A DNA stretch of 64,000 nt from Poseidonibacter antarcticus (GTDB lineage: Bacteria > Campylobacterota > Campylobacteria > Campylobacterales > Arcobacteraceae), in assembly GCF_003667345.1 (NCBI RefSeq), contig NZ_RCWF01000003.1, positions 1 to 64,000 on the forward strand, written 5' to 3'. Positions 23,775-28,904 of the stretch are shown piece after piece. The notes under the pieces are model-generated. The model did not search any database, was not told where the DNA came from, and saw nothing but the letters and a program-made list of their open reading frames with translations. How positions within the stretch are numbered: the stretch's first letter is position 1; each line of letters begins with the position of its first letter. Both the position numbers and the translations under genes were made by a program.

Positions 23775-24686
23775 TTGAGTGAAAGCAAACTAGGTCAAAT
23801 ATATGGTATATTTGCATTCTTATTTTGGGGTGCAATTGCCCCTATTTATTTTAAAGAAGTTTCAAGTGTTGAACCTTTAGAAGTGTTGATTCATAGAATC
23901 ATTTGGTCATTTGTTGTATTAGTTCCATTGTTATATCTTACTAAGCAAGTAGATGTTTATAAATTACTTATTAAAGATGTGCGGAAGTTGAAATATTTAG
24001 CTTTTTCAACACTTTTTATTTCTTTAAATTGGTTAATCTATATTTGGGCAGTTACAAATAATATGTTAATGGAAACTGCTCTTGGTTATTATATAAATCC
24101 TTTAGTAAATGTATTGTTAGGCTTTTTATTTTTTCAAGAAAGAATGAGTAAAAATCAATATTTTGCAATTTTTATTGCTTTTTGTGCAGTTTTATATCAA
24201 TTAATTAGCTTAGGTTCTATTCCTATTGTTTCTTTATCTCTTGCTTTTTCTTTTGCTTTCTATGGAATGCTTAGAAAAAAAGTTAATGTAGGCTCAATTG
24301 TTGGACTATTTGTAGAAACATTAATAATGATGCCTTTTGCACTTATTGGAATATATTATCTTTATGCAAATGATTCTATTTCATTTCTAAATTCAAGTAA
24401 TTATATAAATATTATGCTAACTCTTGGTGGTTTAATGACTATTATTCCTCTTCTTTTATTTAATGGAGCAGCCACAAGAATGAAACTTACAACTTTAGGT
24501 TTTTTACAATATATCGGACCTACTTGTGCTTTTTTACTTGCTGTTTTTGTTTATGATGAAGAGTTTAATTTTGATAAAATGATTACTTTTTCATTAATTT
24601 GGATAGCTTTAGTAATATTTTCAATAGACTCAATAAAAAAATATAGAAAAGAGAAAAAAGAAATAAAAATTAAAAGTAAAGAGTAG
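23775..24686 (+). CDS. rarD: RarD-type EamA transporter
   Basis: A 303-residue drug/metabolite superfamily permease with ten helices. Family segments are AFLFWGAIAPIYFK (about 14-27), NWLIYIWAVTN (about 85-95), GYYINPLVNVLLG (about 105-117) and LQYIGPTCAFLLAVF (about 249-263). The start is TTG at 23775; no in-frame ATG lies near the N-terminus, and the ribosome site is poor, so translation may be weak. RarD substrates are uncertain. The stop lies inside the first of two inverted repeats that flank the next promoter. Confidence 0.85.
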   Translation: MSESKLGQIYGIFAFLFWGAIAPIYFKEVSSVEPLEVLIHRIIWSFVVLVPLLYLTKQVDVYKLLIKDVRKLKYLAFSTLFISLNWLIYIWAVTNNMLMETALGYYINPLVNVLLGFLFFQERMSKNQYFAIFIAFCAVLYQLISLGSIPIVSLSLAFSFAFYGMLRKKVNVGSIVGLFVETLIMMPFALIGIYYLYANDSISFLNSSNYINIMLTLGGLMTIIPLLLFNGAATRMKLTTLGFLQYIGPTCAFLLAVFVYDEEFNFDKMITFSLIWIALVIFSIDSIKKYRKEKKEIKIKSKE

Positions 24687-24699
24687 AACTCTTGACTTT
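24673..24699. promoter_or_regulatory. Inverted repeat 1 of a paired operator
   Basis: AAAGTAAAGAG (24673-24683), five bases, CTCTTGACTTT (24689-24699). It overlaps the rarD stop and the -35 box of the next promoter. A second copy with the same architecture lies 52 bp downstream. Likely bound by the MerR-family protein encoded next; that is inference. Confidence 0.65.
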
Positions 24700-24720
24700 T
24701 AAATAAAATTAATCTATACT
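24692..24720 (+). promoter_or_regulatory. Promoter of the MerR-family/aas operon
   Basis: TTGACT (24692-24697), a 17-bp spacer and TATACT (24715-24720) match the sigma-70 consensus at 10 of 12 positions. The -35 sits in inverted repeat 1, and repeat 2 begins 4 bp after the -10, so a bound repressor would block both ends of the promoter. Confidence 0.75.
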
Positions 24721-24724
24721 TCCA

Positions 24725-24751
24725 AAAGTAAAGAGTTTAGCTCTTCACTTT
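24725..24751. promoter_or_regulatory. Inverted repeat 2 of a paired operator
   Basis: AAAGTAAAGAG (24725-24735), five bases, CTCTTCACTTT (24741-24751). The left arm is identical to repeat 1 and the right arm differs by one base. It covers the expected transcription start and ends just before the ribosome site AAGGA. Confidence 0.65.
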
Positions 24752-24762
24752 AAGGAATAAGA

Positions 24763-25401
24763 ATGAAAGTTATAGAAAATAAAAACTACTATAAAATGTC
24801 TGAATTAGTTGAGGTAAGTACTTTGAGTAATCATACAATCTCTTTTTATTATAAAAAAGGTTTATTACCAAATACTTTAAGTACTTCAAAGAATATGAAG
24901 TATTACCCTGAAATTACAATCACTGTTTTAAATATGATTAAATATTTTAAAGACAATCTTAACTTTTCTCTTGATTATATAAAAGAACTTTTTGATTATT
25001 ATCAAATCAATTTTGAAAATAGAGCTGATTTGATATTACAATCAATTCAAATGTTATCAAGTGAAATAAAAAATCCAATTAATAAAAAAGACTTAGATAT
25101 TGATATTTTAAATGAAGCAATTTCTTTAGATTTATTAGATGATAAAGAAGTATATTTTAAGACAGAAATTGAGGTTTTAAATGTATATAAACAATTAAGA
25201 GAATATGATATTTCAACTGATTTGATTAGTGAATATGTATCTACAAGTAAAAAACTTGCTATATTAGAAAGAAAATTGAGTACAAAAGTTTTAGAAAAAA
25301 CTGGCTTTTTACCTGAGGTTTTAGTTCTTGATATTTTAAATGCATTTAAACCATATATTTTCAATCGTCATACAATTGAAGAATTTAAAAAGGCTTACTA
25401 A
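24763..25401 (+). CDS. MerR-family transcriptional regulator
   Basis: A 212-residue regulator with a MerR-type winged helix at about 10-80: YKMSELVEVS, TISFYYKKGLLP and a second helical part KYYPEITITVLNMIKYFKDN. The rest is a helical domain with no cysteine cluster, so a metal sensor is unlikely and a lipid or organic ligand is possible. It is the first gene of an operon with aas, overlapping it by 1 bp (TAATG). Two matching inverted repeats bracket its promoter, pointing to autoregulation. Unlike classical MerR operators they do not sit between -35 and -10, so repression rather than DNA-distortion activation is suggested. Confidence 0.82.
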   Translation: MKVIENKNYYKMSELVEVSTLSNHTISFYYKKGLLPNTLSTSKNMKYYPEITITVLNMIKYFKDNLNFSLDYIKELFDYYQINFENRADLILQSIQMLSSEIKNPINKKDLDIDILNEAISLDLLDDKEVYFKTEIEVLNVYKQLREYDISTDLISEYVSTSKKLAILERKLSTKVLEKTGFLPEVLVLDILNAFKPYIFNRHTIEEFKKAY

Positions 25402-28400
25402 TGAGTGCTATATTAGAAAGTATAAGTAAAATAAAAAACGTATCTACAATAAAACTAGCATTTTTATTTGTAGTGTTTTGTAATGCTCTTGTAGATGTTT
25501 CACATAAAGTTTTACTTCAAAATATTGCATTTAAAGTATTTGATGGGAGTGAACAAGTTATATGGATTTCTGTTATAAATTCTATGATAATTATTCCTTT
25601 TTTACTTTTATTTACGCTAAGTGGTTATTTATCTGATAAGTATAATAAAAAAACAATACTAATTTATGGTGCAGTTTCGTCTTTTTGTTTATCTGTTCTT
25701 ATGATACTTGCATACTTAAGTGGAAACTTTTATTTTGCTATGATTTCTTTAGTTTTATTAGCTGTACAAAGTGCTATTTATTCTCCTGCAAAATTTGGCT
25801 TGATTTTGGATATTTATGGTAAAAAAAATCTAGCAAAAGGTAATTCCGCTTTACAAACAATTTCTATTCTTGCAATACTATTTGCAATAGGAATTACTTC
25901 TTATATTTTTGAGGGTTTTTATACTTCAAATAACTTAGATTTATTAAGTACAAAAGAAGAGTTACTTAGTCAAATACTTCCTTTAACATATTATATTTTA
26001 CCTGTAGCTTTTTTAGAAATGATTGTTTCATTATTTATTCTAAAGAAAATAAGAACAGTATATAAAAAGAATGATCGTTTAGAATTAAATAAAAATGATT
26101 TACTAAAAGGAAAATTATTAGTAAAAAATATAAATACGATTTTTTCAAATAATATAATCTTTTTATCAATAATAGGACTTTCAATTTTTTGGGGAATATC
26201 ACAAGCATTATTATCAGTATTTCCATCGTATGCAAAGCAGTATTTAGATATTACGGATGTATTTGTTATAAATGGTGTATTAGCATCTTCAGGAATTGGT
26301 ATAGCTCTTGGTGCAATTATATATTCAAAAGTTTCAAAGCATTATATTGAAATAGGAACAATACCTATTGCTGCTTTTGGAATGGCTCTTATGATTTATA
26401 TAGCTACTATTGTACAAACACCTTTTTTACTTATTATGTCATTTTTATTATTTGGTGTTTTTGGAGGATTATTTGTAGTTCCGCTAAATGCTTTAATACA
26501 ATTTAATGCAAATAAAAAGATTTTAGGAACTATTCTAGCTGGGAATAATTGGTTTAATTCTTTAGCAATGTTTATAATGTTAAGTATGACAACAATAGTA
26601 TCATTTTTTGCACTTGATCCTTTAAATACAATATATATAATCCTTGCAATTACATTTATAGGTTCTATGTATACAGTTGTAAAATTTCCTCAATCTATGC
26701 TTTTATTATTCGTAAAACTTATTGTTGGATTAAAGTATAAATTAGAAGTAAATGGCGTTAAAAACATTCCTTCAAATAAAGGTGTTTTATTATTAGGAAA
26801 TCACGTTTCATGGATTGATTGGGCAGTTATTTTAATGTCTGTTCCAAGAGAAGTAAAATTTGTTATGGAAAAATCTATTTATAATAAATGGTATCTAAAA
26901 TGGTTACTAAAAATGTTTAATGCAATTCCAATTTCAGGAGCTTCAAGTAAAACTACAATGCAAACAGTTGCAAAAGAGTTAGACGCTGGAAATATTGTAG
27001 TTTTATTTCCAGAAGGGAATATCACAAGAAATGGACATTTAGGGGAATTTAAAAGAGGTTTTGAATTAATATTAAGACAAACAAATAATGATGTAAGTGT
27101 TGTATCTTTTTATATTAGAGGTTTATGGGAGTCTATGTTTAGTAGAGCAAGTAATAAACTAAAAAGAACTTATAGAACAAATACCGTTACTGTTTCTTTC
27201 TCAAAAGTTATGAATAAAGAAAATGCAAATGTTGCAAGTATCAAACAAGAAGTTATTGCCTTATCTACAAAATCTTGGAGAGAGCATATCAAAAATTTAG
27301 GAACACTAAGTGAGACTATTTTTGATAAGTTAAAAGAAGTATCAGATGAAATGATAATAGCAGATTCTACAGGTATAGAATTAAGTGGGAACAAGTTTCT
27401 AACAGCATCAATTCTTTTTAAAAATTTACTAGAAAAAAAAGTAAAAGGTCAAAATATTGGACTTCTAATTCCATCAAGTGCAGCGGGAGCTTTTATAAAT
27501 AATTCAGTATTAATGATGGGAAAAACAGCTGTAAATTTAAACTATACAGCTCAAATAGATTCACTAAAACTAGCAGTAGAAAAAGCAGAAATAAAAACTA
27601 TTATTGCATCTTCAAAATTTGTAGAGAAACTAAAAGCAAAAGGTATAGATATTTCTTCATTGTTAGATTTAGTTGAGGTTATATATTTAGAAGATATTAA
27701 AAAAGATATAAGTAAAGTTAGTGGATTATTAACTTTATTATCTGTTAAATATTTACCAAGTTTTTTACTTAAAGCTATACACATAAAGAAAATAAAAAAA
27801 GATGATACTGTACTTATTTTATTCTCTTCAGGAAGTGAAGGAACACCTAAAGGTGTTGAATTAAGTAGTGATAATGTATTAGGTAATTCACAGCAAATCG
27901 CAAATGTTTTAAATGTAAATGATGATGATGTTTTTGTAGGTTCTCTTCCTACTTTCCATGCTTTTGGAATAGTTGTAACAACATTTCTCCCTTTAATTGA
28001 AGGAATTAAAACTGTTGCACATCCAGATCCCACTGATGGTTTAGGATTAGGTAAATTAATCTATAAATATAAAGCAACAATTTTAACAGGAACATCAACA
28101 TTTTTTAGACTTTATACAAAAAATAGAAAAGTAAATCCTTTAATGTTTGAAAGCTTAAGAATAATAGTAGCAGGTGCAGAGAAATTAAGAGAAGATGTAC
28201 GAAGTGATTTTAAGAAGAAATTTGGAAAAGATATTTTAGAAGGTTTTGGAACAACAGAAACAACACCTGTAACTTCTTGTAATTTACCTGATGTTTTAAC
28301 ACCTGATTTTACTGTACAAAAAGGAAGTAAAATAGGAACAGTAGGAATGGCACTTCCTGGAACATTAATAAAAATCACAGATCCAGTAACTTTTGAAGAG

Positions 28401-28904
28401 TTAGAAATAGGGGAAGAAGGAATGGTTCTAATCTCTGGTATTCAAGTAATGAAAGGATATTTAAAAGATGAGAAAAAAACAAAAGAAGTTCTAAAAGAAA
28501 TAAATGGACGAACTTTTTATATAACAGGAGATAAAGGAAAGCTAGATAGTGATGGTTTTTTAACTATTGTTGATAGATATTCAAGATTTGCAAAATTAGG
28601 CGGAGAAATGGTTAGTTTAAGTGCTATTGAAAATCTAATATCAAAAATTATAAAACTAGATGAAGATTCCTTAACAGATTATATAGCAACTTCAATAGAA
28701 GATGAAAAAAAAGGTGAAAAAATCATACTTTTAATATCAAATGTTGATGATGAGTTTATTGAAGATTTAAAAGAAAAGATTATTTCTGCATTTGATAATA
28801 ATCTAATGATTCCAAGTATTATAAAAATAGTTGATGAAATCCCAAAACTAGGGACTGGTAAAAGAGATTTTAAAGGAGCTAAACTCTTAGCTCAAAGTGT
28901 TTAA
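25401..28904 (+). CDS. aas: Fused MFS transporter / lysophospholipid acyltransferase / acyl-ACP synthetase
   Basis: A 1167-residue three-part protein. An MFS transporter of about 12 helices (1-430) resembles LplT, which flips lysophospholipids inward. A PlsC-type acyltransferase follows (about 445-630) with GNHVSWID (HX4D) and FPEGNITRNG. An AMP-forming acyl-ACP synthetase completes it (about 650-1165) with SSGSEGTPKGVELS, GFGTTETTP and TGDKGKLD. In E. coli LplT and Aas are separate neighbours that re-acylate 2-acyl-GPE; here all three steps are in one chain. Translation is coupled to the MerR-type gene (TAATG). Probable role is membrane phospholipid repair and fatty-acid recycling. Functional assignment is from domains. 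Confidence 0.92.
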   Translation: MSAILESISKIKNVSTIKLAFLFVVFCNALVDVSHKVLLQNIAFKVFDGSEQVIWISVINSMIIIPFLLLFTLSGYLSDKYNKKTILIYGAVSSFCLSVLMILAYLSGNFYFAMISLVLLAVQSAIYSPAKFGLILDIYGKKNLAKGNSALQTISILAILFAIGITSYIFEGFYTSNNLDLLSTKEELLSQILPLTYYILPVAFLEMIVSLFILKKIRTVYKKNDRLELNKNDLLKGKLLVKNINTIFSNNIIFLSIIGLSIFWGISQALLSVFPSYAKQYLDITDVFVINGVLASSGIGIALGAIIYSKVSKHYIEIGTIPIAAFGMALMIYIATIVQTPFLLIMSFLLFGVFGGLFVVPLNALIQFNANKKILGTILAGNNWFNSLAMFIMLSMTTIVSFFALDPLNTIYIILAITFIGSMYTVVKFPQSMLLLFVKLIVGLKYKLEVNGVKNIPSNKGVLLLGNHVSWIDWAVILMSVPREVKFVMEKSIYNKWYLKWLLKMFNAIPISGASSKTTMQTVAKELDAGNIVVLFPEGNITRNGHLGEFKRGFELILRQTNNDVSVVSFYIRGLWESMFSRASNKLKRTYRTNTVTVSFSKVMNKENANVASIKQEVIALSTKSWREHIKNLGTLSETIFDKLKEVSDEMIIADSTGIELSGNKFLTASILFKNLLEKKVKGQNIGLLIPSSAAGAFINNSVLMMGKTAVNLNYTAQIDSLKLAVEKAEIKTIIASSKFVEKLKAKGIDISSLLDLVEVIYLEDIKKDISKVSGLLTLLSVKYLPSFLLKAIHIKKIKKDDTVLILFSSGSEGTPKGVELSSDNVLGNSQQIANVLNVNDDDVFVGSLPTFHAFGIVVTTFLPLIEGIKTVAHPDPTDGLGLGKLIYKYKATILTGTSTFFRLYTKNRKVNPLMFESLRIIVAGAEKLREDVRSDFKKKFGKDILEGFGTTETTPVTSCNLPDVLTPDFTVQKGSKIGTVGMALPGTLIKITDPVTFEELEIGEEGMVLISGIQVMKGYLKDEKKTKEVLKEINGRTFYITGDKGKLDSDGFLTIVDRYSRFAKLGGEMVSLSAIENLISKIIKLDEDSLTDYIATSIEDEKKGEKIILLISNVDDEFIEDLKEKIISAFDNNLMIPSIIKIVDEIPKLGTGKRDFKGAKLLAQSV

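Follow-up and report, generated by a model that had tools for sequence, protein, structure and literature searches.

A predicted pair of operators at the promoter of a MerR-family regulator and lplT-aas in Poseidonibacter antarcticus and related bacteria

In Poseidonibacter antarcticus, a promoter flanked by two long inverted repeats precedes a gene for a MerR-family protein and the phospholipid-repair gene aas, and the arrangement raises the question of whether the repeats are the operators of that protein and how it would act from them. The window analysed here is a stretch of 64,000 nucleotides (contig NZ_RCWF01000003.1, positions 1 to 64,000). An earlier note on this DNA had reported two near-identical repeats 52 bp apart, and both lie exactly where it placed them. 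Site 1, a 27-bp palindrome of sequence AAAGTAAAGAGTAGAACTCTTGACTTT, spans positions 24673-24699 with its centre at 24686, and site 2 (AAAGTAAAGAGTTTAGCTCTTCACTTT), also of 27 bp, spans 24725-24751 with its centre at 24738; no strand is assigned to either predicted operator, and the centre-to-centre distance is 52 bp. The description as near-identical inverted repeats calls for a small correction, as each copy has one mismatched arm position (A against G in site 1 and A against C in site 2). The consensus among relatives is a longer repeat, AAAAGTAAAGAGTT-N-AACTCTTTACTTTT. When up to three mismatches are allowed, the two sites are the only occurrences in the window, for which shuffled sequences predict 0.01 matches. 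They are also the only close matches in the source genome; weaker ones with two and three mismatches occur elsewhere, and a reversed control pattern gave one weaker match too. The two-mismatch match (C2:239328) is located, judged by eye, just beyond the end of a D-amino-acid dehydrogenase-like gene and resembles an intergenic hairpin, and the three-mismatch match is at chance level; a larger regulon is thus disfavoured.

Three genes on the forward strand frame the repeats. Upstream, rarD (EamA family, 23775-24686; TIGR00688, 220.6 bits) runs into site 1, the left arm of which (24673-24686) encodes its final codons and its stop codon at 24684-24686. Downstream is a gene (24763-25401) for a protein of 212 amino acids, in which a winged helix at the N-terminus (residues 10-78) is followed by a helical C-terminal domain. 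Its identification as a MerR-family protein is borne out by a match of the N-terminus to Pfam MerR_1 (PF13411, E 7.3e-16, above the cut-off), which is shared by 30 of 30 aligned members and agrees with the structure model. The protein falls outside the metal-sensing subfamilies (MerR, CueR, CadR and ZntR equivalogs), its best score being 32.7 bits against a cut-off of 150.85. The regulator stop codon overlaps the start codon of the third gene (25401-28904), which encodes an lplT-aas fusion of 1167 amino acids that combines an MFS lysophospholipid transporter, an acyltransferase and an acyl-ACP synthetase (NCBIfam NF006386, 1475.9 bits, cut-off 1221; Pfam MFS_1, Acyltransferase and AMP-binding).

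The makeup of the neighbourhood varies. In other genomes rarD lies outside the unit: the upstream neighbour changes, and the sites, promoter and regulator stay together. Genome G012 carries four genes between regulator and aas in the same operon (L069, 108-2682), which encode a small membrane protein and CDP-alcohol phosphatidyltransferase-like, CdsA-like and PlsC-like proteins of phospholipid synthesis; G019 has a gap of equal length and resembles G012 in this length and in the end of the last inserted gene. Several relatives have an amidohydrolase (PF04909) gene at this place (L071, 147-1145, and other g10 genomes). A regulator paralogue of 30% identity is encoded away from aas in G076 (L074, 4414-5085), preceded by a palindrome-like element, ATGTAAAGTGTCACTTTACAATTTACAT, and adjoining a short gene similar, as judged by eye, to the AhpD/carboxymuconolactone decarboxylase group.

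The promoter of the regulator-aas operon (24692-24720, forward strand) consists of TTGACT (24692-24697), a 17-bp spacer and TATACT (24715-24720). It is the best sigma-70 match within the surrounding 600 bp; a match of this kind is by itself within chance (2 found, 4.3 expected). The coordinates confirm that one repeat covers the -35 and the other the start region. The right arm of site 1 contains the -35 hexamer, a gap of 4 bp separates the -10 hexamer from site 2, and the inferred transcription start, at about 24727, falls inside site 2. If transcription starts 7 bases past the -10, the sites are centred at about -41 and +12. This geometry differs from that of the classical MerR activators (MerR, CueR, CadR, BmrR). 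The N-terminal domain of the regulator matches MerR_1 and known structures as theirs does, but those proteins bind a palindrome between the -35 and -10 hexamers, within a spacer of 19-20 bp, and activate by distortion (PMC9909328), whereas here the spacer has 17 bp and both sites lie outside it.

Conservation of the motif in related genomes had been set beforehand as a test on which the proposal could fail, and both repeats turned out to be well conserved. A search of 104 Arcobacteraceae genomes yielded 25 loci, including that of P. antarcticus, that contain the start of the regulator gene together with the DNA upstream of it. Site 2 precedes the regulator in all 25, and both palindromes are retained in 18, with centres exactly 52 bp apart in 17; in the other locus (L017) the distance is 68 bp, longer by 16 bp or about one and a half helical turns. 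One more pair at 52 bp lies directly before a regulator start at a contig end of G029 (L076). The remaining seven loci (L020, L023, L026-L030) have site 2 only, and six of the seven carry a better -35, TTGACA. The 4-bp gap between the -10 and site 2 is constant in all but one of the 25 loci, and the hexamers and their 17-bp spacing are retained among the relatives, with a -10 of TAGACT at this spacing in L010 (by eye). Across the 17 aligned loci the arms carry 1.65-1.91 bits per position (1.91 in both arms of site 1), compared with 1.07 in the promoter spacer and 0.63 in the upstream flank. The right arm of site 1 almost always reads TTGACT where perfect symmetry would require TTTACT, as expected of a site that doubles as a -35; L018 has TTTACT and a fully symmetric site 1, and L022 deviates differently.

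Loci without the regulator give the complementary picture. At 14 such aas loci the best palindrome scores are 14-18 of 26, the same as in shuffled sequence. In two genomes of the same genus (L067, L068) rarD leads almost straight into aas, and the regulator and both palindromes are missing together. Three further loci (L040, L041, L047) have lost the regulator and the palindromes and retain TTGACT-17-TATACT or TAAATT, which indicates that the promoter is independent of the regulator protein and argues against a need for an activator. Since some genomes keep aas without the regulator, the control is dispensable.

When 397 genomes of the class were searched with a profile, 19 more members of the regulator group came to light in other families of the order. 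These distant orthologues, at 24-37% identity, all directly precede a gene that begins like lplT-aas. Upstream of them, at the -35, is a single variant palindrome, AAAGTGTARAGTGNCACTTKACACTTT, which scores 19-25 of 26, whereas the shuffle maximum is 16-18; a second such site was not seen. The copies vary, with those of L092 and L106 nearly perfect and those of L101 and L107 among the weaker ones. The start codon of L091 had been set ten codons too far upstream, which did not affect the palindrome found. Two of the distant loci, L092 and L094, also have a different palindrome round the ribosome-binding site, just before the start codon (TCACAAGTCAATAAAAAGGATTTGTGA and TCATAAATCAATTAAAGGATTTATGA). 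The operator and the DNA-recognition region of the protein differ together between the Arcobacteraceae and the distant group. The protein tree, in which several inner branches are weakly supported, places the distant members outside one well-supported Arcobacteraceae clade, within which the state of site 1 must have changed twice or more. Read from these sequences, the simplest history would have site 1 as the ancestral site at the -35, site 2 gained in the Arcobacteraceae, and site 1 then lost at least twice.

Because they are conserved and lost with the regulator and recur at the -35 of its distant orthologues, the palindromes are very probably the operators of the adjacent MerR-family protein. 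The co-inheritance thus upholds the connection made earlier between the repeats, the next-door gene and the regulator-aas operon. As to the manner of action, the regulator is probably a local autorepressor that blocks RNA polymerase from two operators and is released by a membrane-damage signal. One regulator dimer at the start (site 2) and another at the -35 (site 1), which might cooperate, would exclude RNA polymerase from the near-consensus promoter or hold it there, so that the regulator and lplT-aas are kept at a low level. The C-terminal domain would bind a signal that arises from membrane damage, with a fatty acid or a lysophospholipid as the likeliest candidate, and the protein would then be released; with the operon switched on, phospholipid would be repaired and the signal removed, as aas consumes the acyl lipid. 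This explanation draws on the conservation of the arms, the co-inheritance, the 17-bp spacer and the lack of a third close site in the genome, and the operators overlap the promoter of the regulator's own operon, as a MerR-type local autorepressor requires. Of the earlier proposal of a blocking autorepressor of aas, the positions at about -41 and +12 and the spacer fit and do not suit a classical activator; repression is the step that we infer from them. Two points count against the explanation: activators, too, work from positions near -41, and the control is dispensable in some genomes.

The first of these points leads to the main rival, in which the protein would activate from site 1, the place of a class II activator, and repress from site 2, as GlnR does in Paenibacillus (PMC6191146). 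The presence of sites on both sides of the core promoter and the retention of only the -35 site in the distant families would suit such dual control, which we nevertheless consider unlikely: the -35 hexamer is itself within the palindrome, so that the protein, once bound, would compete with sigma, both hexamers are close to the consensus at 17-bp spacing, three lineages without the regulator have kept the promoter, and the loci that lack site 1 mostly have an improved rather than a weakened -35. The earlier note had also considered looping, and the exact spacing of 52 bp, or five helical turns, in 17 loci and in L076 would indeed allow the dimers on the two sites to form a DNA loop or to cooperate in phase. 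The spacing, however, follows from the fixed positions of the -35, the -10 and the 4-bp gap; the two sites of L017 are off phase, 68 bp apart, site 2 stands alone at seven loci, as does site 1 in the distant families, and a loop model for GlnR was proposed and then found unsupported (PMC6191146). Looping is therefore a highly improbable reading and that part of the earlier proposal is not supported.

The palindromes might instead act as RNA, site 1 as the rarD terminator and site 2 as a hairpin at the 5' end of the mRNA. Site 1 folds somewhat better than shuffled sequences (z -1.7), and similar palindromes followed by T runs end sox-type genes in relatives in a terminator-like manner. Yet no terminator-like site was found, site 2 folds no better than shuffles (z +0.41) and leaves a position unpaired at 18 of the 25 loci, with two compensatory cells in all, site 1 persists next to divergent upstream genes (L010, L011, L025), and both sites vanish together with the regulator, which leaves an RNA role hardly credible. 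The variant at the sox-type gene ends, AAAGTCAAGA..TCTTGACTTT before a T run, occurs in several relatives (L073, about 1069-1095; L072, about 610-636) and is probably a terminator whose likeness to the operator is coincidental. A different DNA-binding protein might use the palindromes, given that binding by the regulator is itself inferred and that MerR proteins more often bind between the -35 and -10; the joint gain and loss of sites and regulator gene, and their covariation across the order, make this barely conceivable.

The nature of the signal was approached through structure models of the regulator. An alignment of 16 near-identical sequences led to a poor first model (pLDDT 55), and inclusion of the distant members in the alignment gave a model with a mean pLDDT of 89, the N-terminal domain of which fits known MerR structures. 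The whole-chain structural neighbours are SCO5550 (2dg6, Z 9.1, 183 residues) and the Rv1264 N-terminal regulatory domain (Rv1264N; 2ev1, Z 7.9, 162 residues), and the C-terminal half also resembles Rv1828/FtsR (5ydc, Z 7.2, 109 residues). Z values of 7-9 among helical proteins may reflect no more than a common arrangement, and these nearest folds share 9-14% identity with the regulator and control other genes, Rv1264 being an adenylyl cyclase. Profile comparison gave a probability of only 8% to another MerR-like winged helix in the C-terminal half, and none is claimed. The structure of Rv1264 was determined with oleic acid (PMC12505454), and a fatty-acid response is listed for Rv1828 (PMC9909328). 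On the strength of the model and of the lipid-repair function of the operon, an acyl-lipid signal appears plausible, and a fatty acid as the ligand is a weak lead; the phospholipid-synthesis genes in the G012 operon fit a lipid signal.

The binding mode had been called unusual for the MerR family, and uncommon it is, although not without precedent: among MerR-type repressors, GlnR and CarA/CarH have operators that lie on or beside the -35 or beyond the transcription start (PMC6191146, PMC8156234). GlnR of Bacillus and Paenibacillus is likewise a winged-helix, autoregulated MerR-type repressor with two palindromes at one promoter: at B. subtilis glnRA one overlaps the -35 and the other lies just upstream, and at Paenibacillus nif one precedes the -35 and the other follows the start (PMC6191146). 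In contrast to the 27-bp palindrome, single operon and different C-terminal domain described here, GlnR recognizes a smaller site, TGTNAN7TNACA, regulates many genes, responds to feedback-inhibited glutamine synthetase and dimerises differently (PMC5045206); the consensus here, AAAGTAAAGAGTTNAACTCTTTACTTT, does not match the GlnR/TnrA operator. CarA/CarH of Myxococcus and Thermus share the MerR-type DNA-binding domain, an operator overlapping the -35 and repression by blocking polymerase (PMC8156234), but have operators of 11-bp direct repeats or a segment of about 55 bp from -70 to -19, a B12-binding C-terminal domain and light as the signal. Operators outside the spacer are thus known from other MerR-type repressors, and this regulator, the positions of its sites and its possible fatty-acid signal appear undescribed; a limited literature search found no description of this regulator or of an aas regulator in this group.

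Lysophospholipids can reach unusually high levels in Campylobacter jejuni under stress, at 20-45% of its lipids (PMC12709257), and no description of transcription control of lysophospholipid repair in Campylobacterales was found in the limited literature search. It is possible, if rather doubtful, that a MerR-type sensor of fatty acids or lysophospholipids governs lplT-aas throughout the Campylobacterales through an operator over the -35, and that within the Arcobacteraceae this operator shifted to the start region through a stage with two operators. With a dedicated regulator and a defined operator, membrane-damage sensing in these bacteria becomes testable, and the promoters with one site, two sites or a moved site would together make a clear natural example of the shifting of a repressor site in evolution.
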